Positions 3,994 through 19,034 of a stretch of 49,558 bases of DNA are shown here, in pieces (within the stretch, counting starts at the first letter, position 1; every line of letters starts with the position of its first letter). Under the pieces are notes generated by a model that did no database searches, had not been told where the DNA came from, and worked only from the letters and a program-made list of their open reading frames with translations. Position numbers and translations under genes: made by a program. Source of the stretch: Leisingera sp. ANG-Vp (lineage in GTDB: Bacteria; Pseudomonadota; Alphaproteobacteria; Rhodobacterales; Rhodobacteraceae); assembly GCF_000813725.1 (NCBI RefSeq), contig NZ_JWLD01000065.1:1-49558 (forward strand), given 5' to 3'.

Positions 3994-4002
3994 GATTTTG
4001 CC

Positions 4003-5961
4003 CTATTCATGACTGCGGCGCCGCCTTCGCTTTTTGGTTTTGAACCGGCGGCGCTTTTTTGCAGTCTCTTCCCTGGGTGGACTTGTTTCCTCTGGCGGAT
4101 TTTCCCTAGCCTCTTCCCCGGCCTCGGCTTCCTGTTCGATCTCCTGCTCGATTTCCTGGCCCTGCTCTTCCAGGCCTTTCAGCAGACGCCTGATGTTTGG
4201 CCGCAGGATCCGTAGTGCAGCATAGGCATAAACCCGGCAGTCAAAGGCCTCATTGCGCGGGCGGACGTTGTGCCATTCCCGGATGGGAAAGCCCTTCAGA
4301 TACTTCGTGCGCAAGGTCTCGGCCGTGAACATGTCATACCAAGCCGGATCGCGGCCTAAGGGGAAGTGGCAATGGCCTGGCCCCGGCTCAGGCACCCGCG
4401 CGAACTGGGCGACAACGACTTTGGCCTCGTCCACGCCAATCGCATGCAGCCAGACAGGGCGCACCCCGCGCTGCTTGACCTTGCTGGGCTGGGTGACAAT
4501 CGGCCGCCCCCAGCCACCCACGCCTTTGATCGCCCAAACCTTCCGGCCCAGCCGTTTGCGGGCGTAATCATAGGCCGCCTGCGTCCGCCCGCCCTCGCCG
4601 CCAGTGTCCAGGCACGCGGCAGAGATCCGCAGCTCGGCACCGCTCTCATGCTCCCAGGTCTCGGCAAGCAGTTCGTCCAGCTCGTCCCATACGTCCTGCT
4701 GCAACGGGTCGCCCCACAGGACTTTGTAGTCGACGGACCAAGACTCTTCGCCCAGCCCCCAGCCGACGATTTCCACTTCAAGCCGGTCATTCTGCATGTC
4801 GATGCCCGCCGTCAGCACACCCGCACCCATCGGCACCGGCGCTTTGAATTCTTTGGCACGCGCCATCAACACCGACGACTCGAGCTGGTCGCCCTCTTCT
4901 TCCCAGGTTTCCGCCAGCGACACATTCACAAAGGTCTGCAGATCGTTTGCCGCCTTCTTGTCCAAGAAGGACTGCACAATGTCTTTCAGGTAGCGGAAAC
5001 AGCTATAAAGTTCGGACAGATGGTAAGAGGCATGGCCGCGGAAAGGCTTCTTTGCGATCCAGCCGCCGCCCTGTTTCTCCGCGTTGCGGATCGCCGCGCA
5101 GCGCTCGCCATCGTTCCAGGCGGTGCCGCAGCCGTCGCCCTCGCAAAGATAGGTGGCAGTTTCCGGCAAGTGCTCGCCATTCTCATCTTTGCACCAGGTC
5201 ACCTGCGGCCATTTCAGGGTTTGGATATGGCCGCAGTGCGGGCAAACCACATGGAAATGGCGCTGATCCCCTTCAAGAAATGCGGTCTCGATCCAGCTCT
5301 CTCCCTTGATCGTGGGAGTACTGATTTCGAACAGGAGTTTCTGGTCGCCAAAGGTTGCCGCCCGCTGCCACAGCAGGCCGACCGGGTGCCCTTCGCTGGT
5401 CCGGTCATAGCCATCCGTCTCGTCGCACACGATGAACGGCGCCGACCGGCCGCGCATGGTTTTCGGCGAACCCGACCAGCTGAACATGAGAAACCCGCCC
5501 GGGTAACTCTTCATGCGCTGATTGTTCACACCATCCCGGCCGCGCGGCTTGGCCAGGACCTCCTGCAGTCCTTCGTTCGCCTCGACCATGGGATTGAACT
5601 TGGTCTCAAGCCATGTGGTCAAATCGCCCTGGCTGGGCTGCATCATCATTTGGGAAACGGGGTTGAACCCGATCCGGTAAGCTTGCGCCGCCAGGCCCGT
5701 CTGCGTTTTGCCAACCTGTGCGCCCCACATCAGCGAGATACGGTCGCACCGCGGGTTCGCTGTCATGTCGATCACTTCCCGCTGATACGGGGCGTTGTCG
5801 AACCGCATTGGCCCCGGCACGGCATTGCCGACCGGGATTCTGATATTGGCCTCAGCCCATTCTGAGGGCAGCAGGTTCGGAGGCGGCCGCAGGAATTCCC
5901 GCGCGCGGCGGGTCGCGCGGACTACCGCGCGAGCATTGGAGAAGTCAGCCCGGGCGTTCAC
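4003..5961 (-). CDS. Phage terminase large subunit, GpA family
   Basis: This is the packaging motor that cuts concatemers and pumps DNA into the prohead. An N-terminal ATPase has Walker A GAQVGKT (80-86) and Walker B FIVCDE (Asp180, Glu181). A zinc-binding pair of cysteines follows (CPHCGHIQTLKW), then a second Cys pair (CEGDGC). A C-terminal nuclease region runs through GIDMQNDRLEVEIVGWG and CLDTGG. The 652-residue length matches the lambda GpA family. The extreme C-terminus is an unusual acidic run followed by a poly-basic tail (KKRRRFKTKKRRRRRS). The ATG overlaps the stop of the small-subunit gene, as expected for a terS-terL pair. Confidence 0.93.
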   Translation of the reverse strand: MNARADFSNARAVVRATRRAREFLRPPPNLLPSEWAEANIRIPVGNAVPGPMRFDNAPYQREVIDMTANPRCDRISLMWGAQVGKTQTGLAAQAYRIGFNPVSQMMMQPSQGDLTTWLETKFNPMVEANEGLQEVLAKPRGRDGVNNQRMKSYPGGFLMFSWSGSPKTMRGRSAPFIVCDETDGYDRTSEGHPVGLLWQRAATFGDQKLLFEISTPTIKGESWIETAFLEGDQRHFHVVCPHCGHIQTLKWPQVTWCKDENGEHLPETATYLCEGDGCGTAWNDGERCAAIRNAEKQGGGWIAKKPFRGHASYHLSELYSCFRYLKDIVQSFLDKKAANDLQTFVNVSLAETWEEEGDQLESSVLMARAKEFKAPVPMGAGVLTAGIDMQNDRLEVEIVGWGLGEESWSVDYKVLWGDPLQQDVWDELDELLAETWEHESGAELRISAACLDTGGEGGRTQAAYDYARKRLGRKVWAIKGVGGWGRPIVTQPSKVKQRGVRPVWLHAIGVDEAKVVVAQFARVPEPGPGHCHFPLGRDPAWYDMFTAETLRTKYLKGFPIREWHNVRPRNEAFDCRVYAYAALRILRPNIRRLLKGLEEQGQEIEQEIEQEAEAGEEARENPPEETSPPREETAKKRRRFKTKKRRRRRSHE

Positions 5962-6518
5962 TCACTGTCCGCCCCTTCTGCCTCGCCGTCCTCACCGTCA
6001 TCGAGATACAGGTCGGTTTCTTCCACAAGATCCCGGTCGGCCAGCGCCTCGAGCACATGATCGACTTCCTCACGCATCTTTTCTTTGAAAGCGGTCTCTT
6101 CGGTCTCACCCATGAGACGGCGGGCTGCCCGCTGCGGAAGCACATTGCGGATACCTGCGCGCACCTCGCCAAAGGCCTTCGTCAGTGCCCGCTCGTACTG
6201 TTCAACCGGCACGACCTCGTCTTTCGCCTTTGCCAGATCAAGTTCCGCCTGTTCTGTCTCGGCCGCCAGCTTACGCAGCTGCAGCTCGTCTTTGCTCGCG
6301 TTTGTGGTGTGGCTGGCCTGCGCCCGGATATCATCGTCCCGCCAGCTGCGCACCTCCGCAGTGTTGAAAATCCACGCCCGGCCGCGGCCGCCGCGCTGCA
6401 CCACCGGGCAACCACGGCGCACCCATTCGTCGATAGTTGGCAGCGAGACACCGTTGATTTCGGCAAGCTCGGTGCGGTTTACTTCTCTTCCCTTGGATTT
6501 CTTTTTCTTTCCAGCCAC
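5958..6518 (-). CDS. Phage terminase small subunit, Nu1-like
   Basis: The small subunit recognises the packaging site and hands the DNA to the large subunit. Near the N-terminus is a winged-helix of the Nu1/MerR-like kind (VNRTELAEINGVSLPTIDEWVRRGCPV, then a basic wing and AWIFNTAEVRSW). A long helical segment (LQLRKLAAETEQAELDLAKAK) for oligomerisation and an acidic C-terminus follow. Two starts are possible: TTG at 6530, or GTG at 6518. GTG at 6518 is preferred because GGGGG lies five bases ahead of it. The stop overlaps the TerL start by four bases. Confidence 0.85.
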   Translation of the reverse strand: MAGKKKKSKGREVNRTELAEINGVSLPTIDEWVRRGCPVVQRGGRGRAWIFNTAEVRSWRDDDIRAQASHTTNASKDELQLRKLAAETEQAELDLAKAKDEVVPVEQYERALTKAFGEVRAGIRNVLPQRAARRLMGETEETAFKEKMREEVDHVLEALADRDLVEETDLYLDDGEDGEAEGADSE

Positions 6519-6586
6519 TTGCGCCCCCAACGAATAGAAAGCCGTGCCTCTGCGCCAAGGCAGGTGTTTTTACATCCCGAACCGGA

Positions 6587-7075
6587 TTAGATGTTTTCTT
6601 TCAGAGACTTGCGCGGGCTATATAATAAACAACCCCTATCCCCGGCGGCACGCACACATAATTTTCTGCGGTTCGGCCTACCCACGTGAGATCCCCCTGG
6701 GGAGGGACCCATTTTTGTTACCCTGCTGAAGCCTGAGGCGAGGCTTGCAGCGATCTGCGCGGGGGTTGGCAGCAGCCAGCCCAGCAGCGCGACCAGCAGC
6801 AGCCAAGGCGGCGGATCCTCCTGCACAACAACCGTCTGCACTGCTTCGCTGCGCACGCTGGTGCGGCCTGCGCTCTGCTCTATGGTGCGAGCCTGCGGCC
6901 GGGTGATCTTCTGCTCTGTAATAACCGTCTGCCCGACGGTCTGCGTGTTTGTGCGCCCCGCTTGGATATTGGCCGCCACGTTTGGCGCCCCTGCTCCAAG
7001 GCTGGCAAGGCGCCCAACTGGCGACCCGCAGGCCACCAGGGCGAGGCAAAGGGGAACACAAACCCGCCAGTGCAT
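6587..7075 (-). CDS. Unimolecular spanin-like lipoprotein (spanin2 family)
   Basis: The spanin fuses inner and outer membranes in the last step of lysis. The N-terminus is a short lipoprotein signal with lipobox LVAC just before a small mature region. GAPNVAANIQAGRTNTQ, the hallmark I recall for roseobacter-phage spanin2 proteins, comes next. A hydrophobic segment (PPPWLLLVALLGWLLPTPAQIAASL) near residue 95-120 would sit in the inner membrane. One chain with an outer-membrane lipid anchor and an inner-membrane segment is the u-spanin plan. The start is ATG at 7075, sharing one base with the endolysin stop (TAATG). The ~45 basic residues after the membrane segment are longer than I expect and not family-like. 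Confidence 0.75.
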   Translation of the reverse strand: MHWRVCVPLCLALVACGSPVGRLASLGAGAPNVAANIQAGRTNTQTVGQTVITEQKITRPQARTIEQSAGRTSVRSEAVQTVVVQEDPPPWLLLVALLGWLLPTPAQIAASLASGFSRVTKMGPSPGGSHVGRPNRRKLCVRAAGDRGCLLYSPRKSLKENI

Positions 7076-7800
7076 TAAGTTAGCCCTACAAGGCACAGGG
7101 CGTGCTTACTGTCCGCGCGGCGGTTCTCGAGGCCGCGGATACGCTGGCCACCGGCCTTGACCCAGCGGCGCAACTCATTGCAGGCGCCGACGTAGTCGCC
7201 CGAATTGGCCTTTCGCATCATGGTCGACCGGCACACCGGCCCGGAACCGACATTGAAAGCCAGTTCCAGCATGGAAGCCTGAACGCCCATGGGAATGTGC
7301 TTGTTCGTCATGCACGGGGAGATTTCGGCGTAGAAGGTCTGAACATCTTCCTCGAGCCGGTCGACGCACTCTGCCATTGTCGCTGTGTCGCCCAGCTGCA
7401 CCCCATTGGTGTCGCCGAAACAGATGGTCGGCACACCAACGATATCGAGATAGGCTTCCGTCTTCACGCCCTCCCATTTGGCGATAAAGGGCGTCGCCAT
7501 TGCGATCACCACAGCACCGGTCGCCATGCCGCCCATGGTTCGGCGCCGCACCGCCCCGCTGGTGTCGGTCAGAAAGTTTTTCAGCATTGTCAGCCTGGTC
7601 TGCACAACCAGGCGCGCCGGAATGGCCAGAACGTTGATCACTGACGCCACGACCGCAAACCAGACCGGATTCCAGCCCAGCTGGGCGGCCGTTACCATGC
7701 TGAAGAAAACGCCAGCCATCGAGACCAGCGCGGCCAGCACCATCAGACGCACCGACCACGAACCGGCCAGAACGGCTTTCCAATTAGGAATGAGTGACAA
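7075..7800 (-). CDS. Holin-like domain fused to GH24 endolysin (lysozyme)
   Basis: The C-terminal part cleaves peptidoglycan. It has the T4/P21-type catalytic pattern E-8-D-5-T as Glu110, Asp119 and Thr125 (KWEG...YLDIVGVPT), then FNVGSG and a C-terminal ENRRADE-like segment (LENRRADSKHALCL). The first ~70 residues are a separate module with two membrane segments (LMVLAALVSMAGVFFSMV and PVWFAVVASVINVLAI), like small phage holin-type proteins. A third weak hydrophobic stretch (MGGMATGAVVIAMATPF) lies just before the catalytic Glu and could act as a signal-arrest-release anchor. The gene sits ten bases after the coiled-coil membrane protein and overlaps the spanin start. Confidence 0.85.
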   Translation of the reverse strand: MSLIPNWKAVLAGSWSVRLMVLAALVSMAGVFFSMVTAAQLGWNPVWFAVVASVINVLAIPARLVVQTRLTMLKNFLTDTSGAVRRRTMGGMATGAVVIAMATPFIAKWEGVKTEAYLDIVGVPTICFGDTNGVQLGDTATMAECVDRLEEDVQTFYAEISPCMTNKHIPMGVQASMLELAFNVGSGPVCRSTMMRKANSGDYVGACNELRRWVKAGGQRIRGLENRRADSKHALCLVGLT

Positions 7801-7809
7801 TTCCGCCTC

Positions 7810-8151
7810 CTATTGGCTATCAGGGAAAAAACTGGGCGCCGGGGCTGACCTGCGGTCCAACCGGGCGCGAATGTCGACAAGGGTTTCGAGAATACGGTCG
7901 AGCGTCGCGTCTTGGGCGCTGATGCGCTGTTCGACCTGACGCAGCCGCGGGCTGATGTTGTCGATCTGGTTTTCCAGCCGCTGGAAATCATCCAGCGCAA
8001 CGACCTGCCCTTCGAGCCGTTTGATTGTGGCCTCAGTCACCGACATACGCGTGTTGAACTGCCCCCAAGCGAAAGCAAGAGACGTGAGGATCGTTGCCAG
8101 GCTCAGGACGGTACCCAGCGAAATGCTTTTGTTGATGATAGGTTGTGACAT
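7810..8151 (-). CDS. Small membrane-anchored coiled-coil protein of the lysis cassette
   Basis: This 113-residue protein has one membrane segment (residues ~10-30, SLGTVLSLATILTSLAFAW). A long heptad-patterned helix follows (~35-100, ATIKRLEGQVVALDDFQRLENQIDNI and onward). Such proteins commonly sit first in alphaproteobacterial prophage lysis cassettes, but their role (holin accessory or spanin partner) is not established. It is the first gene of the leftward lysis-packaging transcript visible here. Nothing on its strand lies between it and the cargo island. Confidence 0.6.
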   Translation of the reverse strand: MSQPIINKSISLGTVLSLATILTSLAFAWGQFNTRMSVTEATIKRLEGQVVALDDFQRLENQIDNISPRLRQVEQRISAQDATLDRILETLVDIRARLDRRSAPAPSFFPDSQ

Positions 8152-8807
8152 TCCGGCGGCCTTGCTTATTTTTGAGCAAGATTGCGCATTACGTGTAGGT
8201 TAGCCTCTGGCGGTATTTCCGCTCAGTGGCCCGAGTTAGAAGATGCAATTTCAGATCGTACAGGACGTTTTGGCGGCACGCCGGACTTTTGACCGTCCGC
8301 TGCGGATCCGAAGGGGTCGACAAAGAACGGTCGCTTCAGGCCCGATGGGCGGGAAGCCGACCTTCGCTGCTTGCGCGCAACGAGTAACCCAAACATTGAA
8401 AAAGGAACATTCATCCGACAGAAGATTGCATTCTGTATTGAAGCATGCACTACGGTTCGAGCCGGACAATAGGTTTCCTATGGGTCAAAAGGCGACGGTT
8501 TCAGCCACTCGCGCACAGTCTGGAACGGTTGAGCCACCTATCTGGTAGGTAGGGTGCCATTGGTTCGCAGCTCCAGAGAGTACTCTGCGTTACATCTCTT
8601 GCTAATGCGCGATCAGTGCCCCAGGGTCATCAGGCATCCTCCGGCAAGCAATGAGCGCTACAAAATCGTTTTATTTCAATGTGTTAACTAAATACCTGAT
8701 CGCCTTTTACTTTTCCAGCTACTGCGGATAAAGTCTGTGCGGAAGAGGCCTTCGAACTACTTTGCCGCCATTCGATTAAGGGAACTAATAGATGGTTTTG
8801 CCACCGA
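8152..8807. other. Gene-poor 5' flank of the cargo island
   Basis: No convincing gene is seen in these 656 bases. Open frames of 75-101 codons exist on both strands but are Arg/Pro-rich with no family-like pattern. Composition shifts from GC-rich prophage at the left to AT-rich cargo at the right from about 8,650. The promoter of the methyltransferase operon should lie in the last ~150 bases, but I cannot point to a clear -35/-10 pair. Confidence 0.5.
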
Positions 8808-8815
8808 ATGAATAA
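8792..8815 (+). other. Possible seven-codon leader ORF overlapping the methyltransferase start
   Basis: An ATG at 8792 has AAGGGA about seven bases upstream and reads Met-Val-Leu-Pro-Pro-Asn-Glu before TAA at 8813. The methyltransferase ATG at 8808 lies inside this mini-ORF in another frame and has no good ribosome-binding site of its own. Translation coupling through the leader is therefore plausible. This is inference from spacing only. Confidence 0.3.
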
Positions 8816-10199
8816 AGAGATATCGAATGGGATTGACAGCTTTTCATATTGCGCTGTCCCAGCTCAGTTCCAACCGAATAAGTTCTTCCCTACTGACACG
8901 AGTGCTCCGCTTTCAGAGCTTCTGGAGCTCTATAGCTCATCGGCGGGCAAACCTCTTGAAGTATCCTTTAGAGAATTAGTTCCGTGGGTATATGGAGGAA
9001 GTCGCGCGAGCCACTATCTGCACAGCTACCCAGCAAAGCTCCTTCCTCAGATAGCTCACTTTTTCTTGGCAAATGAAGTACTCTGCCCTCGTGATGGCGT
9101 GGTTCTAGATCCATTTTCTGGTTCCGGGACGGTCGCCCTCGAAGCTGTTCTCTCAGGGAGAGACGCTTACTATTGTGATGTAAACCCATTCGCAAGATTA
9201 TTAACCAAGTCCAAAACCACTGCCATCCCCCCTTGCGATGTGGACATCGCAATGAAAAAAGTATCGAAGGCGTATCTCAGTTGCAGTTCAGACGCGTATC
9301 CTGACGTTGTAAATCTATCTTACTGGTACAACGAGGGTACCAGTTCACACCTTTCTAAGTTAAAACATGCCATCTCAGCTGTTCCAGCAGAAGAACTCCG
9401 CGCTCTTCTGCTTGTATGCTTTTCTTCTGTCGCTCGGAAACTTAGCAGAGCTAATCCAAGATTCTCAGTCCCAGTAAGATTAAAAGTAAACGGCGAACCG
9501 GTAGACGTCATTGCAAGTGCTCAAGAAGTTTGGAGCTGTTTCGAAAAGACCGTTGAAAAGGCAAAGCGTCAAATCTCAGGGTTGTCAGAAGTTCACTCAT
9601 TGGGTGAAACGCACCTGGTATCAGAAAACGTACTCAATCTTGGAGATGGCTGGCCTTCTACACGAAAGAATTATGGCGAAGTTGACATGGTTATCACCTC
9701 ACCACCTTATGCTGGGGCGCAAAAATATGTCCGTGCCACGAGCTTATCGCTGGGTTGGTTGGACCAAGTCAAGTCTACCCAATTGAAATCCATCGAAAAT
9801 CAAACATTGGGTAGAGAACACCTTCCTAAAACCGAGACACTGAAGCTCAAGCCAACATCCATTGATGAAGCCGATAAAATCATCAGATCCATTTCCGAGA
9901 GCAACCAAACCCGCGCTGCCATAGCATCTGTCTTTCTTCGAGAAATGAAGGAGGCTGCAGAAAACATTATGAAGGCTTTAAAGGGTGGCGGATACGCAGT
10001 CGTGATAATGGCCGACAATACCATCTGCGGGCGACACTTCCCGACAGCGAATTTTACAGCAAAGTTGTTCGAAGATGCTGGAGGGGTCAAAATTTTAGAA
10101 GTACGAGACAAAATTGTATCAAGAGGTCTTCAAACCAAGAGAGCCTCAACTTCATCAAGTATAAGTCACGAAACAATCACCGTTTTTAAAAAGGCATAA
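8808..10199 (+). CDS. DNA methyltransferase (N4-cytosine or N6-adenine type) of the cargo operon
   Basis: This is an S-adenosylmethionine-dependent DNA base methyltransferase of 463 residues. The SAM-binding motif I is DPFSGSGT (101-108), preceded by HSYPAKLLPQIAHFF, typical of one group of N4/N6 methylases. Acidic motif II is YYCDVNPFA, and catalytic motif IV is TSPPY (297-301). A late strand, GGGYAVVIMADNTI, completes the fold. TSPPY is commoner in N4-cytosine enzymes, but the modified base is not certain. The gene is AT-richer than the flanking prophage genes and lies five bases ahead of the phosphoribosyltransferase-like gene. No restriction nuclease is recognisable beside it, so it may mark self DNA for the neighbouring genes or act as the targeting part of the system. 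Confidence 0.85.
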   Translation: MNKEISNGIDSFSYCAVPAQFQPNKFFPTDTSAPLSELLELYSSSAGKPLEVSFRELVPWVYGGSRASHYLHSYPAKLLPQIAHFFLANEVLCPRDGVVLDPFSGSGTVALEAVLSGRDAYYCDVNPFARLLTKSKTTAIPPCDVDIAMKKVSKAYLSCSSDAYPDVVNLSYWYNEGTSSHLSKLKHAISAVPAEELRALLLVCFSSVARKLSRANPRFSVPVRLKVNGEPVDVIASAQEVWSCFEKTVEKAKRQISGLSEVHSLGETHLVSENVLNLGDGWPSTRKNYGEVDMVITSPPYAGAQKYVRATSLSLGWLDQVKSTQLKSIENQTLGREHLPKTETLKLKPTSIDEADKIIRSISESNQTRAAIASVFLREMKEAAENIMKALKGGGYAVVIMADNTICGRHFPTANFTAKLFEDAGGVKILEVRDKIVSRGLQTKRASTSSSISHETITVFKKA

Positions 10200-10203
10200 T
10201 TCT

Positions 10204-11235
10204 TTGGACGAAATCGACCAGCTGCTTGGGTTCGATCAGGATCATCCAGCAGCCCAGCTTGTAGATACTTTTAGTTCATTGAAATCCCGGATCACAATTT
10301 TAAACGCACGATCTTGGGAGAATAAGCTTCGTTGGAAGGAGGTGCAAAGTTGGTTAGACAACTTTGATGGCAAATCGGGCTGCTGCCCGGAAACCGAAAG
10401 ACTACACGCGCTTTTTTTGCTTTCCCAGTTTATGTACTATGGAGGTCGTGAAGTCAGGGTGCTGCTTAAAGCCTTATACCGAGAAATGATTGTGGTTCCT
10501 TTCGTTCAGCGTGCACGGGAAGCACTCGGAAATACGCGTGATTTGCATGCAATCGAACCTGAATTCAATAGGTTGCTACAGCAAACAAGAATATTAGGCA
10601 TCGGAAACCCATCAGAAAGTGGCCCACATCTACTCTACTTCTTTAGACAAGAGAACTCCTTGTCAAAAGATCGCTTTATGGGCGCTTCGGAGATTGTGAA
10701 GGCAGAGCGTGCAGAGGGTGGAGCATTCTCGCGCTCCATTCGTTTTCCGAACGTAACCGACTACTTTTTTATCGATGACGTTTGCGGTTCTGGTGAAACC
10801 GCTAAGAAGTTTTCTGAAAGCGTACTCGAAGAAATAATAGATATGTCGGGGCATGGAAACATCCGCTTCCACTACTACTGCATGTTTGGAACCGAAGGTG
10901 GGATGAAGGCTATACGCGAAAACACTGTCTTTGGAAGAAATTCTGGTGCTATTTATGAGCTTGACGAGACATTTGGGGCTCTGTCTGAGAGTTCAAGATT
11001 CCTAAAAAATCATCCCAGTGACATCAGCCCTCAAACCGTGCGACAAATATGTTTGCACTATGGTAGTCTGCTCTGGCCTGGGCTGCCAGGCGGCTTTGAC
11101 AACAACCAGCTTGTCCTTGGCTTCGGGCATAACACACCCGACAACACGCTACCGATATTCTGGGGTCATCCTGAACATGGAGCGAAAATTCCTTGGAACC
11201 CTGCGTTCCAACGGCACTGGAAGTACGGATACTAG
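10204..11235 (+). CDS. Phosphoribosyltransferase-like protein of a predicted conflict system (PRTase-CE type)
   Basis: The key feature is FIDDVCGSGETAKKF (189-203). It matches the PRPP-binding loop of type I phosphoribosyltransferases: hydrophobic strand, two acidic residues, then a small-residue loop. The family normally uses PRPP to build or salvage nucleotides. The ~180 residues before it are helical with no known motif, and the C-terminus contains LVLGFGHNTPDNTLPIFW, a conserved-looking stretch. I recall a Pfam family named PRTase-CE for such proteins beside ORC/CDC6-like ATPases, which is exactly the neighbour here. The start is taken as TTG at 10204, with AAAAAGG upstream inside the methyltransferase end. 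Its substrate is unknown. Confidence 0.65.
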   Translation: MDEIDQLLGFDQDHPAAQLVDTFSSLKSRITILNARSWENKLRWKEVQSWLDNFDGKSGCCPETERLHALFLLSQFMYYGGREVRVLLKALYREMIVVPFVQRAREALGNTRDLHAIEPEFNRLLQQTRILGIGNPSESGPHLLYFFRQENSLSKDRFMGASEIVKAERAEGGAFSRSIRFPNVTDYFFIDDVCGSGETAKKFSESVLEEIIDMSGHGNIRFHYYCMFGTEGGMKAIRENTVFGRNSGAIYELDETFGALSESSRFLKNHPSDISPQTVRQICLHYGSLLWPGLPGGFDNNQLVLGFGHNTPDNTLPIFWGHPEHGAKIPWNPAFQRHWKYGY

Positions 11236-11239
11236 ATCA

Positions 11240-13255
11240 ATGATGCAAAACCCCTTCGATACCCCAAAGGCGTCGCACTTCACCGCGGATGAAATCCTTG
11301 ATCTCTATGTGGACGCTGAAGGTGACAATGAAGAACTAGTCAACGGCCTTCTCGAACCGACATCAACAACGCCCTTGCGCTTGTTGGGCGGCAAAGGAAG
11401 TGGAAAAACCCACTTGCTCCGGTATTGTTCGCATTCAGTAAGGCGGAGAAAGTACAAGGGAGATCTTGTTTCCGCAATAAAGAGCGATGGTTACATCGGA
11501 CTTTATGTGGATTCAGGTGCTCTGAATGCACAAAAATTTTTCGGAAAGAGGCTGGAGAGAGAACAGTGGCAAAGTATTTTTGGCTACTATTTCGAAATGT
11601 GGTTGGTGCATCATTTTCTTGCGGTGATGAAGCAACTTTCAGATCAGGTTGATGGAGAACAGTTTTTTGACACTGGGGTTTTTCTCTCCTCAGTTCGGGG
11701 ATGTTTTGATGTCGACGTGTCAGAAAAATTTCAAAACATAGATGAATTCTCCGACTACCTAACTGCGCTGCGCAAGGATGTCGACTATCGGTCTAACAAT
11801 GCAGCTTTGAGAAACACCTTTGAAGACCTGGAAATCCTCTTTTCTCCTGGGAGATTGATTTTCGGAACGGCTGAAGCTTTCCGCTCAGCTTGTCCAGACA
11901 TAAAGGGTGCGACAGTTTGCTACATGATAGATGAAGTTGAAAACTTTAGCGAGCTCCAACAAACCTTTTTCAATTCATTGATGCGCTTTCGCGAAGGCCA
12001 CGTCACGTTCAAAGTCGGAGCAAGACTGTATGGCATTCTTACAAATGACACTATGAACGAAGGAGAGCCGATTAAACGTGGATCGGAGTTTGTTGAAGTA
12101 CACCTTGATGACCATCTGCGGGATCTCGGGGAGGCAGCTTATCGGAATTTTGCGACAAAGCTTATAGCGAAGCGCTTGAATCAAAGTGGAATCAATTGTT
12201 CCACTGAGAGAGAGCAAAATCTTTCGCAGGAATTTGAGAGTGTTGATCCAGCCAACGATTACGCTGCAGAGTGCCTGAAAATACTAGGATCGACTGACAA
12301 AGGGGGGCGTGAGAGACCTTACTTTAAAAAACTTCGGTCCACACTTTCAAATAAAACAAATATTACACCCAATGCAATTGATGACATTATTGAAGGACTG
12401 AAATGCGAGAATCACCCCTTGGTGGAAAAGGCTAGTGTGCTCCTATTTTTTAGAGGTGCCAAGAGGGAGACAAATGACGCAATCGCCGCGGCACAAGAAA
12501 TTTCCGAAAGTGCAAGAGCATACACATCTGGTGACAAAGCAAAGGGAGGGAAGCACGTTCGTGTGCTTGACTACTACAAATCGGATCTCTTAGCCCAACT
12601 ATATCGGGAAGCAAGGCAGCCGGTTGCCTATTGTGGTTTTGATACGATCGTTACTCTCTCGCAGGGCATTCCCAGAAACCTTTTAATGCTGCTCAAGCAT
12701 ATCTACCGCCGCTCATCATTTGCAGGAGAAAACCCTTTCGAAGGGGGTGTTATAAGCAAGGAATCACAAACAGATGGAATTAAGGATGGTGCGCAATGGT
12801 TTTGGGAGGATGCTCAGCCAGAAGTTAATGCGGCTTCAGTTAGGCTAAGTGTCGAGGCGATCGCTCGATTATTCAGGACCGTCCGCTACAGCGCAAAACC
12901 TTCTGAACCCGCTTTGTCTGCCTTTAGTATTAGAGAAAGCGAGCTCACTGAAAACGCACGAAAGACGCTTAGAACTGCAGAAAACTGGTCCTACTTAATC
13001 CACATCCCTCATTCAGGTAGCGACAAGAACACTGAAGAACGACGCTACAAGTACCAGCTCGTTCCAATGTTGGCGCCCAAATGGGACGTGTCTTACGCAC
13101 GTCGTGGCACCATTGAACTGGATGACGATTTCTCAAACGCGCTCTTTGATGAGGAGAGGCGCGAAAACCTTGGCGTTCTGTTCAAGAAAAGAACCAACCC
13201 AATGCTGGAGAGCGGTATATTCAAAGTTGATGCAAATCAAGGAACTCTGCTGTGA
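11240..13255 (+). CDS. ORC/CDC6-like AAA+ (STAND-type) ATPase of the cargo operon
   Basis: This 671-residue ATPase has Walker A GGKGSGKT (50-57) and Walker B CYMIDEVENF (about 229-238). A following strand with a charged residue (FKVGARLYGILTN, ~260) is in the sensor position. The C-terminal ~400 residues contain helical and winged-helix-like stretches (TIVTLSQGIPRNLLMLLKHIYRR resembles the lid after sensor 2). The layout resembles ORC/CDC6-like ATPases of predicted immune systems, which could sense invader DNA and signal to partners. The start ATG at 11240 (or 11243) is four bases after the previous stop. An open frame extends upstream to 11018 but overlaps that gene. Its stop overlaps the next gene's GTG start by four bases. 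Confidence 0.75.
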   Translation: MMQNPFDTPKASHFTADEILDLYVDAEGDNEELVNGLLEPTSTTPLRLLGGKGSGKTHLLRYCSHSVRRRKYKGDLVSAIKSDGYIGLYVDSGALNAQKFFGKRLEREQWQSIFGYYFEMWLVHHFLAVMKQLSDQVDGEQFFDTGVFLSSVRGCFDVDVSEKFQNIDEFSDYLTALRKDVDYRSNNAALRNTFEDLEILFSPGRLIFGTAEAFRSACPDIKGATVCYMIDEVENFSELQQTFFNSLMRFREGHVTFKVGARLYGILTNDTMNEGEPIKRGSEFVEVHLDDHLRDLGEAAYRNFATKLIAKRLNQSGINCSTEREQNLSQEFESVDPANDYAAECLKILGSTDKGGRERPYFKKLRSTLSNKTNITPNAIDDIIEGLKCENHPLVEKASVLLFFRGAKRETNDAIAAAQEISESARAYTSGDKAKGGKHVRVLDYYKSDLLAQLYREARQPVAYCGFDTIVTLSQGIPRNLLMLLKHIYRRSSFAGENPFEGGVISKESQTDGIKDGAQWFWEDAQPEVNAASVRLSVEAIARLFRTVRYSAKPSEPALSAFSIRESELTENARKTLRTAENWSYLIHIPHSGSDKNTEERRYKYQLVPMLAPKWDVSYARRGTIELDDDFSNALFDEERRENLGVLFKKRTNPMLESGIFKVDANQGTLL

Positions 13256-14217
13256 TTTCAAGTGCTGAACTTGCTTACTTGGTTGATGCAAAGCAAAAAA
13301 TAACGAACTTTGATGATTTGAACAATATTGATGTATTTATCTCCGCCTTTAATGACAGTGAGCGGGTTAGATATGTTTTTAACGAAGTGGTGGCCAAGGA
13401 GAAATTCTGGTGGATTTTGCCAGAGTACAATTATTCAGGTGTAGATTTGGGGGTCATCCCCGCATCCGACAAGAGAGTCGAGGGGCTGCCAGAAAATGAA
13501 GCTGAACTGATCCTCCAAGGAGTTGACAGCTCGGGAATCACAGATCCTTCAAATTTGGACATTTGCATCGACATAACGGGCTTTATGCGACCGCATATTT
13601 TTATGTTGCTGAAGTTTTTTGAGACCCAAAAAGCAAAATCTTTGACCATCTTATATTCAGAACCGGAGCGTTATTCCCGGGGGGCCGACACAAGCTTTTC
13701 CCTGAAGGATATTCAAGATGTGCGTCAAGTGTCTGGGTATGAAGGAAGCCATATTCCAGACACGAGCAAAGATGTTCTCTTACTAGGTGTCGGATATGAT
13801 CACCAGCTTATGGGGCAAGCTATTCGCTTTAAAGAGGGCGCTCGCCTGCTCCAACTCTTGAGCTTGCCATCTTTGGCAGCCGACATGTACCAAGAGAGCC
13901 TAATTCGCGTAGATCGTGTGGACACAGACGAGTTAAACCCTCCTGGCAGAACCGAACAGTTTTGCAGTGCGAACGATCCGTTCCTTGTTGCAGCTAGCGC
14001 TTCAAAACTTTACCATAGAGAGCTGAGAAACGGTGGAATAACAAACTTCTACCTCTGTCCGTTAGCTACAAAACCACAGGCTCTTGGATTTGGTCTTTTT
14101 TATCTTCGTGAGCTTGTTGATACCGCTTCTAGCGTTATCTTTCCTTTCCCGAGGCGCTATAGTAAAGAGACTTCAAAAGGGGTTGGTAGGATTTGGCGCT
14201 ACCCGATCGTATTCTAG
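13252..14217 (+). CDS. Unrecognised 321-residue protein, last gene of the tightly packed cargo operon
   Basis: I do not recognise this family. The start is GTG at 13252, overlapping the ATPase stop (GTGA), so its translation is probably coupled. The N-terminus (IDVFISAFNDSERVRYVF) and a middle strand-loop pair (LDICIDITGFMRPHIF, then AKSLTILYSEPERYS) give an alternating strand-helix pattern like a Rossmann-type nucleotide-binding domain. C-terminal sequence includes FYLCPLATKPQALGFGLFYL, which looks conserved. No membrane segment is obvious. It could be the effector or a ligand sensor of the operon. The first lines recall TIR-like sequences only faintly, and I do not claim that. Confidence 0.6.
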   Translation: MISSAELAYLVDAKQKITNFDDLNNIDVFISAFNDSERVRYVFNEVVAKEKFWWILPEYNYSGVDLGVIPASDKRVEGLPENEAELILQGVDSSGITDPSNLDICIDITGFMRPHIFMLLKFFETQKAKSLTILYSEPERYSRGADTSFSLKDIQDVRQVSGYEGSHIPDTSKDVLLLGVGYDHQLMGQAIRFKEGARLLQLLSLPSLAADMYQESLIRVDRVDTDELNPPGRTEQFCSANDPFLVAASASKLYHRELRNGGITNFYLCPLATKPQALGFGLFYLRELVDTASSVIFPFPRRYSKETSKGVGRIWRYPIVF

Positions 14218-14584
14218 CTTCCGAAGCCTCGCAGGGACGTTAACGTTGGCTGCTGCAAATTATTGTGTGTTAGCGTCGACTTCGATTTTGCCTCACTTTC
14301 TGAGCATTCGAATTTCTCTTCTGTGAGGCTACCGTGTTGTGCGGCTGCCTGGGGCTGTGGCGAAAGGCTGTGGTCATTCCTGCTGAGGAAGTACTGCGTT
14401 GTAGATCAGCGGTAGATTTTCCGGGCACTGCTGCAGCCGTTCGAATGCCTGATGATGAGCTCTTTGCCGGAGAGCCTATAGAAGGTACTGAGCTCTGAGA
14501 CACCGCACCTACCTTCTATGCGACTATAAGTTGATGTACTGAACTCCAACACATGTTTCACTAACTTTGGATGATGAGCTTACT
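14218..14584. other. Intergenic region with a perfect 10-bp inverted repeat
   Basis: No gene is seen. The stretch contains ATAGAAGGTA at 14478-14487 and its exact reverse complement TACCTTCTAT at 14510-14519, separated by 22 bases. This could be a weak terminator of the upstream operon, a regulator site or a mobile-element scar. No T tract follows it. Confidence 0.5.
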
Positions 14585-15040
14585 ATGGGATTGTTAAAAA
14601 GCTGGTTTGCGGTCGCCAAGGGCGCCTGGATATCCATGATCCTTGGATATAGCTGGGTCCTCTTTTCGCTCCTCACTGATTGGAAAGTACCCGCTTCTGG
14701 AGCAATCTTGATCTGTGCCAGCTTGATTGCAGAAATCCGTTTGACTGGCCAAGAATGGAATCGGCTTGCAACACGGTTTCCAATCGACAGATTGCACAAA
14801 GTCGAAGGTTCGGACGAGACATTTTACAGGGCTGGCGAAGTTGTCATTAGGAACTCGAATGAAACTCTCGATTGCCTGCGAGCAGTTGCCCGAGGAAAAA
14901 ACGTTGCTCCGGGTGGATTCTATTGGTCACTTTCAGGAGCAGCCGACGATGTAAACCAAGTCGTAAACTGGTTTATTACTGTTTCCGCCATACTTGGCTC
15001 GGTCCTTTGGGGATACGGCGACCTCCTGTTTTCCACCTAA
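14585..15040 (+). CDS. Small multi-pass membrane protein, downstream of the cargo operon
   Basis: This protein of about 151 residues is not recognised. It has two N-terminal hydrophobic segments (SMILGYSWVLFSLL and SGAILICASLIAEI) and one C-terminal segment (VVNWFITVSAILGSVLWGYG). A ~60-residue cytosolic or periplasmic part (FYRAGEVVIRNSNETLDCLRAVARG) lies between them. The ATG at 14585 is preferred over a TTG at 14567, with a weak GATGAG ahead of it. It is separated from the four-gene operon by about 370 bases, so it may have its own promoter. Small membrane proteins are common effectors or superinfection-exclusion factors in prophage cargo, but no evidence beyond position supports that here. 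Confidence 0.55.
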   Translation: MGLLKSWFAVAKGAWISMILGYSWVLFSLLTDWKVPASGAILICASLIAEIRLTGQEWNRLATRFPIDRLHKVEGSDETFYRAGEVVIRNSNETLDCLRAVARGKNVAPGGFYWSLSGAADDVNQVVNWFITVSAILGSVLWGYGDLLFST

Positions 15041-15249
15041 CTACTACAAAGTGTCTGGACCTCCAGCAGCCAGACCGCGCGCCAGCAAAGCGGGCTTTGG
15101 CGAGGACAGATTGTCACTGCCAAGGAACAGGGTTTTGCTCTTGCAGCGAATGGCTGGAATGTCCCGCCGTCCGTCGTTCCCGGCGGACATCGCAATGGCC
15201 GCTTAGCACCCCTCGCGACCTGCTGCACAAGCGAAGAGCCGACAAGCGA

Positions 15250-16119
15250 TCACAAGCTTACTCCCCAATAGTCGGCAAGCTGCTGTTTCTTGGCAATTGA
15301 CAGAGGGGCAGGCAAAACAACAACCCCGATCAAGTCACCCCTCAGAACGTCATAGTCTGCTGCCATTGCAACGTTCTCGTCGGCAATCAGCAACGCGCCT
15401 GCCGCGATATAGGCGGAATGTATTCCAGCCACTGGCAAGATCAGGGCTTCGTCACCCGCATCGTCAGTGAGCCTGCCATTCGCCTTAATCGTCGGCCTGG
15501 CAGCGTCTGACGGCGCTGTGAGGTGATTTCCCGCGATCACTCTTGCTCTGATGTTTGAAATGGTTGCACCGTCATCCGAGGTGACAAACCGCAAATCATT
15601 GTCCGACGACAAGCTCTCTACTTTCAGAAAGAAAGTGCCCGATGCGGAGGCTGTATGGTAGTTGAATGAGCCACCGGAGTCGCCGACACGTACGGCGAAA
15701 CTGCCGCCTGAAATCACGGCTGAAACCTCAATCCAACCACCCTCATTGAAAACGCCAGCGACACGGACCGAGCCCGAAGATGTTCCTGTGTGGGTATAGC
15801 CTCCATTGCCATTGTCGATGAACCCGGATCCAGTAAGGTATGACGCCTCGTCGTTCCAGAGCTCAGCCGCTCGCGCCAACCCCTGCGATTTATCCAACAC
15901 CAGCCTCACCGGATCCCCGATGGATACGGCGGGCGATGTTCCGACCCAATCCTGAAACAACGTCGCCAGATCGGAAGCTTCAAGCCATGCACCCTGCACA
16001 CCACCTGCGAAGAACTCGGCCGGACTGAAGGAGGCACCCGCCCAGCCATCAAGGCGACCATTGGCCGCCAAACGCGAACCTGCAAACCGGCCTGCATGAA
16101 AGCGCCCGCCGAAATGCAT
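15250..16119 (-). CDS. Putative virion-associated protein of roseobacter-type phages
   Basis: The 289-residue protein has a Gly/Ala-rich N-terminus and then FQDWVGTSPAVSIGDPVRLVLDKSQGL, a segment I associate with phage tail or particle-surface proteins of Rhodobacterales. A beta-rich middle (YTHTGTSSGSVRVAGVFNEGGW, GGSFAVRVGDSGG) looks like a carbohydrate-binding or jelly-roll domain. The C-terminus (LSIAKKQQLADYWGVSL) matches the family's usual terminal helix. Its ATG shares one base with the stop of the 88-residue gene (TAATG). It is an odd neighbour for early regulatory genes, and the cargo island begins directly after it. Exact virion role unknown. Confidence 0.5.
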   Translation of the reverse strand: MHFGGRFHAGRFAGSRLAANGRLDGWAGASFSPAEFFAGGVQGAWLEASDLATLFQDWVGTSPAVSIGDPVRLVLDKSQGLARAAELWNDEASYLTGSGFIDNGNGGYTHTGTSSGSVRVAGVFNEGGWIEVSAVISGGSFAVRVGDSGGSFNYHTASASGTFFLKVESLSSDNDLRFVTSDDGATISNIRARVIAGNHLTAPSDAARPTIKANGRLTDDAGDEALILPVAGIHSAYIAAGALLIADENVAMAADYDVLRGDLIGVVVLPAPLSIAKKQQLADYWGVSL

Positions 16120-16385
16120 TAGGGCACCAGCAAGCTAGCGCTTGCGCTTTCACCGGCGAACCAAAGGCGCTCGCCCGACTTCAGCTGCATCGGGACAGAC
16201 CGGCCAGGCCGGACCGGATGGGCTTTGCGCGCATGGACTCCGGGCAGATCGTCGGTTGTGGTGATCTCGAAATAGGCGACGTATCCGCTGGTATTGGTCA
16301 GCAGGATATCCTGATCGTCGGCGGCGGTGTGGCGCTTGGAAACGTCCCAGGAATCAGAAAGCTCGTCGAAAGGGGTGGTGGGCAT
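16119..16385 (-). CDS. Small phage protein (88 residues), probably structural
   Basis: The short protein is beta-rich (ILLTNTSGYVAYFEITTTDDLP, VRPGRSVPMQLKSGERLWFAG, then SASASLLVP). This pattern is common for small virion or tail-tip accessory proteins, but I cannot name a family. It has a good ribosome site (GGAGG shortly before ATG at 16385) and is coupled to the following 289-residue gene. A strong hairpin lies about 20 bases upstream of the start, so it probably begins a transcription unit separate from the Mor-like gene. Confidence 0.5.
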   Translation of the reverse strand: MPTTPFDELSDSWDVSKRHTAADDQDILLTNTSGYVAYFEITTTDDLPGVHARKAHPVRPGRSVPMQLKSGERLWFAGESASASLLVP

Positions 16386-16405
16386 GCGTGCCTCCGCAAT
16401 GTCAA

Positions 16406-16434
16406 AGGGCTGGCTGATTGTCTCAGCCAGCCCT
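16406..16434 (-). terminator. Perfect 12-bp hairpin after the Mor-like gene
   Basis: AGGGCTGGCTGA (16406-16417) and its exact complement (16423-16434) enclose a five-base loop. Read leftward, the stem ends in CCCTTTG, a short T run. It lies between the end of the early leftward genes and the 88-residue gene, and would stop or attenuate early transcription. Confidence 0.6.
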
Positions 16435-16451
16435 CTGCTTGCCCTCTGGCG

Positions 16452-17027
16452 CTATTCCGGCGCCTGCAGCCGTGGCCGCCAATATTCCCCTTCATCCACC
16501 AGGCTTGCCACCGTCTTCTTTTCAACCCCGATTTCCCGGGCGATCTCGGCCTCGTCGGCCCCCTGATCCTGAAGCCGCATCACATAGTCAGCCAGATACG
16601 CCTTGCGCAGGCCATGGCAGGACGGCAGCTCGAGGATGCAATTCGCATGGCTGAAACTGAGTTTGGTGGCATCTTCCAGGCCGATCAGGGTGGCGATCCG
16701 GTGCCCCTCCGGCATTTCGGCCGGCACATACAGCTGCCGCCGCCACCGGCGCCGCCCGCGCGGCCGGGTGCCTTCCACCAGCCGCACCGCATTTTCCCGC
16801 CCGATCACCTCGGCGATTTCCTCGACGCTCTCCGGCAGCGGCACCCTGTGCCCCCTACCAGCTGCAAATTCCGCCAATGGGTAACGCACCACATCTGGCA
16901 ATTCGAGCTGCTGGGCTACGTCTGCCGGGGCTGGACGGGAAGGCACTGCACGCCCAGCGCGCTGCGCCTGGTTCAAGAGCTTGCGCAGCTGCTGGTTCTC
17001 AGCTTTCAGCTCCTCGAGCGCACCCAC
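16452..17027 (-). CDS. Mor-like transcription activator (C/Mor family)
   Basis: Residues ~65-190 match the Mor pattern. LPESVEEIAEVIGRENAVRLVEGTRP is the dimerisation part, a basic YVPAEMPEGHRIATLIGLEDATKLS segment follows, and the C-terminal helix-turn-helix is DQGADEAEIAREIGVEKKTVASLV. Mor activates middle or late promoters in Mu-type phages. The N-terminal ~35 residues form a coiled coil (LEELKAENQQLRKLLNQ). The start is GTG at 17027, only three bases past the previous stop. Its place at the end of the early operon and just before a terminator suggests it switches on the downstream late genes. That is inference. Confidence 0.6.
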   Translation of the reverse strand: MGALEELKAENQQLRKLLNQAQRAGRAVPSRPAPADVAQQLELPDVVRYPLAEFAAGRGHRVPLPESVEEIAEVIGRENAVRLVEGTRPRGRRRWRRQLYVPAEMPEGHRIATLIGLEDATKLSFSHANCILELPSCHGLRKAYLADYVMRLQDQGADEAEIAREIGVEKKTVASLVDEGEYWRPRLQAPE

Positions 17028-17030
17028 GGC

Positions 17031-17444
17031 TCACCCTTTCGCCTTGGTGACAAGGATCTCCATCCCCTGCGCAAGCAGTATGGCCTGCTTAAGCTTGAAC
17101 ACATCGGTTTCATGCCCCTTGCGGTCCTCGATCACCGCGCAGCCAAGCCGCTTGTCGACATAGGTGAAGTCTGCCCGGTAGACGCGCTGTTGCTTCCCCC
17201 CATCGGTCATAATGGGACCGTCCCGGCCGTGCAGGGGAATATCTACCTGGCGGCGCAAACCGCAAATCTCCCCAGCCGATTGCAACACCTTCAACTCTTC
17301 CCAGCGCTGGGCCTCTGTTTTGCTGTCATGGGTAATGCCGTCTGATGTGGTGGTGCGCTGCGTGCCCCGTACCCTGCGCTTGTCCTGGGTCTGATCTTCT
17401 TTCAGGGCCTTTCGGTACTGCTCGGCCGTCAACCTATCTGTCAT
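17031..17444 (-). CDS. DUF1064-family phage protein, PD-(D/E)xK nuclease-like
   Basis: The central part reads DSKTEAQRWEELKVLQSAGEICGLRRQVDIPL, then YRADFTYV and AVIEDRKG. An Asp followed ~15 residues later by an acidic-x-Lys set on a beta strand is the PD-(D/E)xK nuclease pattern, and DUF1064 proteins are common in phage replication regions. The start ATG at 17444 (MTDRLTAEQY) is chosen over an upstream open frame that overlaps the GapR gene. The likely role is recombination or replication-linked DNA cleavage, but no activity can be shown from sequence. Confidence 0.65.
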   Translation of the reverse strand: MTDRLTAEQYRKALKEDQTQDKRRVRGTQRTTTSDGITHDSKTEAQRWEELKVLQSAGEICGLRRQVDIPLHGRDGPIMTDGGKQQRVYRADFTYVDKRLGCAVIEDRKGHETDVFKLKQAILLAQGMEILVTKAKG

Positions 17445-17451
17445 GACGCCC

Positions 17452-17721
17452 TCACATGCCCAGCGCTTCTTTGTACATTTCGAGGACTGCCTCTTCCTCG
17501 GCGATATCGTCGCTGTCACGCTTCCGCAGAGCGATGATCTTACGCATGACCTTTGTGTCGTAGCCGCGGGCCTTGGCCTCTGCCATTACCTCTTTCTGCT
17601 GTTCTGCAATGGTCTTCTTTTCTTCGTCCAGGCGCTCGAAGCGCTCGATAAACTGGCGCAACTCAGCCTCGGTAACGCGATAGTTTTCGCTCTTCTCGCT
17701 GTCTGTCATTTCCACTGTCAT
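17452..17721 (-). CDS. GapR-like nucleoid protein (DUF2312)
   Basis: This 89-residue protein has the family signature ARGYDTKVMRKIIALRKRD after a long first helix (ELRQFIERFERLDEEKKTIAEQQKEVM). Chromosomal GapR binds overtwisted AT-rich DNA ahead of replication forks and stimulates type II topoisomerases. A phage copy next to a replication initiator may serve the phage fork or act on host DNA structure. The ATG overlaps the previous stop (ATGA type), showing tight coupling. The assignment is firm at family level, and the phage role is inferred. Confidence 0.85.
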   Translation of the reverse strand: MTVEMTDSEKSENYRVTEAELRQFIERFERLDEEKKTIAEQQKEVMAEAKARGYDTKVMRKIIALRKRDSDDIAEEEAVLEMYKEALGM

Positions 17722-18014
17722 CAAACTGCCTCCTGATGTTGCTTTAGTTGTTGGCCTGCGAACTTGAGGGCACGGGCCATGTCCTGTGCGTTCGGGTGTT
17801 TGTTCCCCGCGGCTTGTGCCAGCTGAAGCTGAATGCGGTAGGCGCCCTCGATCTCGTCGAGACTGTTGAACCGCTTGCGACTGGGCACTTCCTGCCCGAC
17901 CAGCCCCCTGCCCGGGGCGATAATGATGCAATCGCCGCGTTCCAGATCGACGGTCACGATGACTTTGCCGAACTTGGTGCCGTAGTCTTCCGCGGTGAGG
18001 TGCGGGCTGCTCAT
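17721..18014 (-). CDS. Hypothetical phage protein (97 residues) in the replication operon
   Basis: I do not recognise the family. The N-terminus is beta-rich (FGKVIVTVDLERGDCIIIAPGRGLVG), and the C-terminal half is helical (EIEGAYRIQLQLAQAAG, MARALKFAGQQLKQHQ). The start ATG at 18014 overlaps the end of the replication-initiator gene, and its stop overlaps the GapR start. It is therefore a genuine member of the early operon. No function can be given. Confidence 0.55.
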   Translation of the reverse strand: MSSPHLTAEDYGTKFGKVIVTVDLERGDCIIIAPGRGLVGQEVPSRKRFNSLDEIEGAYRIQLQLAQAAGNKHPNAQDMARALKFAGQQLKQHQEAV

Positions 18015-18907
18015 ACGTGGATCCCCGCCGCGATGCAGTCCGCCACAGTGACCAACCCGGCCGCGATGCACTCACCTGCCTGGCTGGGCTTGATGGTGCG
18101 CGCCCAGGGCTTCTGCGAACGGATATCCGCTGCCCGAGCTTCCAGCACCTTGCGCGGATCCTGGCTCGGCAACAGCGCGGTTGCGTGCTGGCGCCAGCGC
18201 TTCTCATCGATCCAGTTCTCGGAATACTTGATGAAGCGCGGTTTGTTCCCGACCTGCTCGACGGCATAGGCCCGTGCACCGGCCAGGATCGCCTGCGGGT
18301 CCACACCAGCGCCCAGCGCCTCTCTCAGCGATTCCTCTGTCGCCTCGGGGTCGCCCATCCGGGGATAGGCAGAGACGAACTCACCAAAGAACCCGTCAAA
18401 ATCAAAATCCGATTTGTGCGTGGCTTCAGCCGCGCAATAGGTTCTATTTGGTTTATTTTGGTTTGGGTGACACTCTGTCGGGGGTTCCCCTGACACACTG
18501 TCGGGGGTTGGGTGACACTCTGTCAGGGGTGACACTGTGTCGGGGGCTAGATGTTGTGCCTTGCTCCCTACATCCTGTGTCGAGGGGTGACGCTGTGTCG
18601 GGGGTGAATTGCGAAGATCTTCACACCGCTCGATACGCTCAACGATGATCCGGTATTCATAGGTGTAGCCGTTACGGTGTTTTCGCTTACCGACTTCGGA
18701 CACAAATCCGGCGTCGATCAGGTCCTTTATGGTGCGCTGAACCGTGCGCTCTGACGTCTCAAGCTCGCTCGCCATCGTGGGCTTAGACGCCCAGATGCCC
18801 GAGCCATCGTCGCTTGCGAGATCGCCCATAAGCAGGATCAGAGCTTTGCCAGTCAGGCCAACGCCCAACCGCCTGCGCCGCAGCAGTGACGTCACATGGT
18901 TACTCAT
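18011..18907 (-). CDS. Phage replication initiator-like protein (lambda O-like) with internal iterons
   Basis: Residues ~1-85 form a winged helix (LTGKALILLMGDLASDDGSGIWASKPTMASELETSERTVQRTIKDLIDAGFV, then a basic wing GKRKHRNGYTYEY), the DNA-binding domain of O-like initiators. A low-complexity linker of repeated ECHPTPDSVSG-type units (~105-150) is encoded by the iterons. The C-terminal ~150 residues (FFGEFVSAYPRMG, KPRFIKYSENWIDEKRWRQ) resemble the part that recruits host helicase-loading factors in such proteins. The start ATG at 18907 has GAGGGA about ten bases upstream. As in lambda, the origin seems to lie inside the gene. Either O-like or a generic helix-turn-helix replication protein would fit. 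Confidence 0.75.
   Translation of the reverse strand: MSNHVTSLLRRRRLGVGLTGKALILLMGDLASDDGSGIWASKPTMASELETSERTVQRTIKDLIDAGFVSEVGKRKHRNGYTYEYRIIVERIERCEDLRNSPPTQRHPSTQDVGSKAQHLAPDTVSPLTECHPTPDSVSGEPPTECHPNQNKPNRTYCAAEATHKSDFDFDGFFGEFVSAYPRMGDPEATEESLREALGAGVDPQAILAGARAYAVEQVGNKPRFIKYSENWIDEKRWRQHATALLPSQDPRKVLEARAADIRSQKPWARTIKPSQAGECIAAGLVTVADCIAAGIHV
18436..18600. repeat. Iteron array, probable prophage replication origin
   Basis: Five copies of TGACRCWSTGTCR, each followed by a G run, start at 18468, 18491, 18513, 18530 and 18588. A half copy (CTGTGTCGAGGGG) lies at about 18575. The unit is a near-palindrome (GACAC/GTGTC). The first four are spaced 23, 22 and 17 bases apart, roughly two helical turns. 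Immediately to the left, 18436-18466 is the most AT-rich stretch of the gene, made of TTTGG/TTTATT runs, fitting a DNA-unwinding element. Location inside the initiator gene parallels lambda ori. Confidence 0.7.
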
Positions 18908-19034
18908 GCCGTGTTCCCTCTGCTCTATGTTTCTTGGCCCCGCTGCATCCCGGGACTTCTCCTTGCCTTCCGGCCTTGGCCGCAGCATCTTGCTGGCGGA
19001 ATTTTGAGTTTTCTTTTGACAGGACAGCTACTTG

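Follow-up and report, generated by a model that had tools for sequence, protein, structure and literature searches.

Why does a prophage of Leisingera sp. ANG-Vp carry four tightly packed, AT-rich genes that run against the phage genes around them, and do these genes form a unit with a common function? The locus lies in the window – the whole 49,558-nucleotide stretch of DNA that was analysed, contig NZ_JWLD01000065.1 – and its features and those of its flanks are as follows.

5958-6530, - strand: terminase small subunit (left flank)
7075-7800, - strand: endolysin (left flank)
8808-10199, + strand: DNA methyltransferase of the amino-methyltransferase type (Pfam, PADLOC, motifs)
10204-11235, + strand: PRTase-CE phosphoribosyltransferase, putative effector (TTG start)
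11240-13255, + strand: ORC-CDC6-like AAA+ ATPase (PF24389; Walker A GGKGSGKT, Walker B IDE)
13252-14217, + strand: CARF6 protein with tandem CARF/Rossmann halves, putative nucleotide sensor (GTG start)
14567-15040, + strand: 157-aa ORF within the AT-rich stretch, with no support for its belonging to the set
21482-22480, + strand: integrase

The four + strand genes span 8808-14217 with intergenic spacings of 4, 4 and -4 bases; the mechanically defined ORF of the ATPase gene begins at 11018, and a start at the ATG ATG of 11240 is more likely. A preliminary description of this DNA had reported a tightly spaced one-strand block, AT-richer than the surrounding prophage and opposite in direction to the flanking phage genes, and these traits are borne out: GC content is 0.45-0.48 at 9-15 kb versus 0.60-0.64 at 1-8 kb and 0.53-0.64 at 15-22 kb, and the phage genes on either side lie on the - strand. 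They include the terminase large subunit, portal and head genes further left of the terminase small subunit, and late transcriptional activator, Holliday junction resolvase and replication initiation genes on the right. The block had also been placed between a virion-type gene and a lysis cassette; the lysis gene is present on the left, and on the right PHROGs give no match at E<=0.01 for the ORF called virion-type (15250-16119). High AT content extends from ~8.2 to 15.1 kb and thus takes in the 157-aa ORF, which has no Pfam, PADLOC or PHROGs match at E<=1 and just E 0.16 in NCBIfam; hydrophobic segments can be seen in it by eye. A scan of 8150-15100 gave 4 promoter-like sites versus 7.1 in shuffles, and 11 terminator-like sites versus 7.4 in shuffles (sd 2.4). 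Among the eight matches listed in a near-window DNA search of phages, coverage is ~3% of the query.

Family profiles agree with the earlier naming of the first three products as a methyltransferase (MT), a PRTase (PRT) and an ORC-like protein, and the fourth, previously listed as unknown, is a CARF6 protein. The methyltransferase matches Pfam N6_N4_Mtase (E 3.7e-12) and PADLOC MTase_II (E 1.8e-44 over residues 67-437), and has motif I DPFSGSGT and, further on, TSPPY; D101, P102, F103, G105, G107 and S298-P-P-Y301 are kept in 40/40 aligned members. Its 19 matches in a sequence-only PDB search all run through the motif I region and include DNA and tRNA enzymes alike, so that a DNA substrate is predicted from the PADLOC, Pfam and PHROG family names. 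The same search gave no match for the PRTase or the ORC protein and a single match, E 0.19, for the CARF protein. The PRTase scores 193.6 bits against PRTase-CE (PF24390; Pfam cut-off 27) and E 2.4e-24 against PADLOC PRTase_III-A, and the acidic pair of its PRPP loop is DD in 55/55 members; PRPP-dependent catalysis is predicted. The ORC protein matches PF24389 at E 1.5e-136 (456.9 bits, cut-off 27), with G50, G55, T57, D231, E232, R262 and R312 in 31/31 members, and K56 in 28 and R in 3. Predicted structures support PRTase and CARF folds for the second and fourth proteins. In the PRTase model uracil-enzyme fold matches tie with orotate and purine enzymes, and for the CARF6 protein a CARF-type Rossmann fold (best fold match 6sce) accompanies the profile match. 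The CARF motif [DN]x[ST]xxx[RK], located after strand 4 in a passage of PMC4012209, is present as D106, T108 and R112; D and S/T occur in 59/59 members each and R/K in 47/59. Binding of a cyclic oligonucleotide by this protein is putative.

GTDB genomes scanned with a PRTase-only profile yielded 121 matching stretches, of which 88 encode relatives, and the best 80 of these 88 were kept. The grouping seen in the window recurs in this neighbourhood survey: the four genes co-occur, and the order MT-PRT-ORC-CARF is complete in 69 of the 80 loci. Four loci have MT-PRT-ORC and then the contig ends; six have PRT-ORC-CARF without MT upstream, five of them with a methyltransferase of a different family downstream (L172, of this form, begins at a contig edge); one (L165) has the PRTase alone. 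Organism labels cover 12 bacterial phyla and two archaeal groups, many being metagenome bins. Pairwise distances for PRT-ORC, PRT-CARF and ORC-CARF correlate at 0.86-0.92, and those of MT with the same three proteins at 0.56-0.62; maxima from 100 permutations are <=0.22, and shared ancestry of the hosts is still included in these values. In a reverse test from ORC, using a phylum sample of 398 genomes, nine full-length relatives were opened with their flanks (L064-L068, L082-L085), and PRTase adjoins ORC in five. Conservation extends to the whole four-gene unit, and the catalytic or binding motifs in it are intact.

This unit is found in several genetic settings. Ten plasmid records have a PRTase match, and six of the eight that were opened contain homologues of all four genes – each in one frame at L086, L087, L089 and L091, with MT and ORC in pieces at L088 and ORC in pieces at L090. 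The other two have PRT-ORC-CARF plus the other methyltransferase (L092) and a PRTase adjoining an annotated retron (L093). No record of a phage collection matched the PRTase profile, and an IMG/VR scan returned two contigs only, one being the window's own locus, so the prophage setting looks unusual. In the closest relative (L094) the operon proteins are 66-76% identical to those of the window, nothing detectable is shared outside the operon, and the operon is AT-richer than most of its own flanks. Among 21 genomes of the genus, this PRTase form was found in the window's genome only; the other PRTase match (L004/L081) adjoins a reverse transcriptase (RT). Close systems on a Sinorhizobium plasmid (L086) and in Phyllobacterium (L096) fit with transfer. 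The mobile, conflict-type island proposed earlier is supported, and the four-gene set is best explained as a horizontally moving, antiphage-type operon, defence being suggested by family company and mobility.

The operon is also modular, with an exchangeable effector and methyltransferase; neither this nor the thymidylate/dUTPase link had been noticed in the preliminary description. CARF6 follows ORC in L065, L067, L068 and L083 by PADLOC, and in L066, L082 and L084 by profiles built in this analysis, and the gene before ORC encodes HD-CE in L082 and L084 and a metallophosphatase in L083. Relatives differ in the enzyme encoded immediately before ORC, which is a PRTase, an HD protein or a metallophosphatase – kinds of protein that often act on nucleotides. 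The methyltransferase is likewise swapped between families, with a PF01555 type, a PF02384 type downstream in L171, and a C5-cytosine enzyme (PF00145) in L082. A 1250-aa protein at L085:6461-10210 has an ORC region followed by one weak CARF match (E 3.7e-5), and is possibly the whole system in one chain; its N-terminal ~316 residues have no family assignment. A ~640-residue protein that matches HAD hydrolases recurs in the PRT-ORC-CARF6 loci L065-L068; the L068 copy has an SIS match. The PRTase-CE family also occurs in other company: a retron-type RT is present at the PRTase-CE locus in 10/10 loci L072-L081, and PRTase-CE adjoins a DUF1156 methyltransferase at L070:7330-12584 and, at L069:7099-15001, a DUF1156-like methyltransferase (own profile) followed by a DUF499 protein. 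In the latter two it is apparently plugged into a BREX-related system. Downstream of one MT-PRT-ORC-CARF operon lies an RT match (L157:5766-7061; E 1.1e-91 to a retron-derived profile).

dTMP-making genes recur beside the MT form. Flanking genes played no part in locus finding; ThyX adjoins 18 of the 80 loci, ThyA overlaps MT in three (L121, L133, L140) and dUTPase occurs without ThyX or ThyA in three (L103, L113, L168), giving 24 of 80, all among the 73 MT-form loci. L123 carries ThyX and dUTPase together, and ThyA genes at least 2.3 kb away in L112 and L118 were left out of the adjacency count. Plasmid loci L086-L090 also carry ThyX, that of L087 being verified directly with Pfam. When the closest flanking ORF of 130-899 aa was scanned on either side (137 ORFs of 150 listed, one viral locus included), Thy1 was the top Pfam family with 17, alongside dUTPase with 4 (3 if the L113 ORF had not been swapped by hand for an opposite-strand dUTPase frame), Phage_integrase with 4, DUF4365 with 4 and ThyA with 3. 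DUF4365-type proteins lie directly 3' of CARF at L133:11951-12781 and L140:11964-12929. Genes related to AIR synthase lie directly upstream of the operon at L108:5383-6525 (by Pfam) and L112:5462-6520 (by eye and from a two-member AIRS flank count), in Sphingomonas and Pseudomonas. Two other candidate neighbours, a MazG-like hydrolase at L110 (Pfam E 0.065, to another family) and a Nudix protein at L102 (NUDIX E 0.15), were rejected as below cut-off.

The position of ThyX varies – in line upstream, in line downstream or on the opposite strand – and its distances correlate with those of the four operon proteins at 0.72-0.81 (17-23 loci), host ancestry again being included in the values. On a FastTree tree of 77 systems, in which long branches are flagged and composition is skewed in many rows, thymidylate or dUTPase presence (25 rows) requires 13 changes, at least 10 of them forced by well-supported branches, and is clustered compared with a shuffled mean of 21.2. 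Some of the 13 changes may be losses, since the tree does not distinguish gain from loss; the variety of arrangement and the involvement of three enzyme families speak for gain on more than one occasion. Among loci of other forms the link is seen in 1 of 31, a dUTPase beside L064 (PRT-ORC-CARF plus the other methyltransferase), and 24/73 versus 1/31 gives a Fisher p of 0.0008, the comparison loci being few, some short, and taxonomically unmatched. Those 31 comprise the six of the 80 without MT upstream, L165, L064-L085, L092 and L093, the comparison set having been redrawn from 0/17 to 0/21 (L064 left out) to 1/31 (L064 in); an alternative split gives 24/80 versus 1/22 (p 0.012). PRTase-CE loci outside the system (L069-L081) have the link in 0/13, which may mean that it concerns MT, ORC or CARF, not PRTase chemistry. 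The other 56 of the 80 loci have no thymidylate gene nearby, no ThyX, ThyA or dUTPase gene was found around the operon in the window, and the host genome carries a single thyA and lacks thyX. The thymidylate link is the part of the system not found in print in the literature searched.

How could these parts work together? The reading that we favour, at slightly less than an even chance, is an antiphage-type operon in which ORC and CARF would form the constant switch, as suggested by the relative in which a single chain appears to carry both. During infection, DNA engagement by ORC, a nucleotide bound by CARF, or both would trigger the switch and release the PRTase, the exchangeable output encoded before ORC. 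The PRTase would act on pyrimidine or PRPP metabolism, DNA synthesis would be starved or poisoned, and the invading phage would fail. Methylation would mark resident DNA and so keep the switch off, and ThyX, ThyA or dUTPase, where present, would shield the host from leaky thymidylate shortage or uracil misincorporation. These three enzymes are ones that counter thymidylate shortage and uracil misincorporation, and hence fit an antidote to a thymidylate-harming output; they fit a dU-reading sensor too. A bolder version, which we regard as possible if doubtful, is a distinct immune class with a thymidylate currency, in which an ORC-CARF6-driven PRTase would destroy or counterfeit thymidine or uridine nucleotides, with methylation as self-mark and ThyX, ThyA or dUTPase as antidotes.

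Placing the thymidylate genes on the sensing side is an unlikely alternative: MT, ORC and CARF would take as a sign of non-self DNA that is abnormal or contains uracil, or an increase in dU nucleotides, while ThyX, ThyA or dUTPase hold host dU low and the alarm silent, with the PRTase as effector and a pyrimidine target unneeded. The distribution of the link agrees with it (24/73 MT-form loci versus 1/31 others, the dUTPase beside L064, and 0/10 where PRTase-CE adjoins retron-type RTs), as does an ORC-like fold suited to DNA engagement, but the operon proteins match no uracil-recognition family in Pfam or PADLOC and those 56 loci manage without a thymidylate gene. We consider it distinctly improbable that the PRTase is the signal maker, producing an unusual PRPP-derived nucleotide bound by CARF, with an ORC-MT complex that blocks as in BREX-like systems. 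ORC and CARF are retained where HD or metallophosphatase takes the place of the PRTase, for which an effector slot is the better fit, and the same PRTase family adjoins retron-type RTs; in favour are the correlated PRTase and CARF distances (r 0.87) and a CARF with no evident partner cyclase, the host genome having no SMODS match and nothing above cut-off among its Cas10-type matches.

A non-defence cargo operon, which would maintain a mobile element or tune nucleotide supply for its replication and methylate the element's DNA, seems very unlikely. Phages commonly carry thymidylate and dUTPase genes for replication, and the relatives on plasmids and the prophage location of the window's copy would suit such a role. 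Against it, the CARF and PRTase-CE families are catalogued with conflict systems, the operon opposes the phage genes in direction, no similarity to the window can be detected in the flanks of the closest relative, L094, and just 1 of 21 genus genomes, that of the window, has the PRTase in this form, the other match (L004/L081) being beside an RT.

The convergence of three unrelated families of one short pathway – ThyX, ThyA and dUTPase – on the operon is a hint at the role of effector or sensor, and recurrence beside dTMP-making genes suggests a virus-defence device working through nucleotide supply. With no SMODS cyclase and just sub-cut-off Cas10-type matches in the genome, the CARF protein of the ORC-CARF core, with its exchangeable effectors, has no evident partner cyclase and could bind a new ligand.

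PRTase effectors occur in retrons, in the DprA-PRTase pair, and in the window operon. Retron type III-A has a PRTase effector according to excerpts of PMC12548924; from these, and from the RTs at L072-L081 and L093, the name of the PADLOC PRTase_III-A model matched by the window's PRTase most likely means the retron type, and a reading as CRISPR type III-A was rejected. Unlike such retrons, the window has no RT by RT profile at 4001-19000, and ORC, CARF and MT instead. Passages of PMC9122126 describe a phage-carried DprA-PRTase system of P2-like phages, with the PRTase as proposed effector under a DNA-binding partner, and call the mode of action of PRTase effectors unknown; the likeness is one of proposed role, and the partner there is DprA. 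A DNA methyltransferase with an ORC/Cdc6-type ATPase recalls BREX and BREX-related systems as outlined in parts of PMC12839542, but the window set has the extra CARF and PRTase, and PglZ, which with BrxC and PglX marks BREX, has no Pfam match at E<=1 in the four operon proteins or the next ORF. The CARF6 protein resembles Can1 and type III CRISPR CARF effectors, as presented in sections of PMC9704534, in having two CARF units per chain and 6sce as best fold match; unlike Can1, it has no nuclease match in Pfam or PADLOC, and two Cas10 models gave only sub-cut-off matches in the 143-contig assembly. The CD-NTase (SMODS) of CBASS has no PF18144 match in the assembly, and, as regards type II restriction-modification, a methyltransferase is present but the Pfam and PADLOC matches of the other three operon proteins include no nuclease family. 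DefensePredictor text passages (PMC13092281) mention one validated system with a thymidylate synthase domain and a predicted system with dUTPase, and name no PRTase-ORC-CARF-MT operon.

A literature search gave no recognized description of that operon, and ORC-Cdc6-like in another sense only. The combination had been thought undescribed, a view that probably does not hold: Pfam and PADLOC already list the PRTase, ORC-like and CARF6 families, the consecutive accessions PF24389, PF24390 and PF24391 suggest one earlier in-silico survey, and at least part of the system has very likely been described in silico. The window's three non-methyltransferase proteins belong to PRTase-CE, ORC-CDC6-like and CARF6 within the PF24389-PF24391 set (PRTase-CE, ORC-CDC6-like, HD-CE) and PADLOC CARF6; in relatives, PRTase-CE is found together with ORC and CARF6, and HD-CE together with ORC and a CARF match. 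To this set the present analysis adds the methyltransferase and thymidylate partners.
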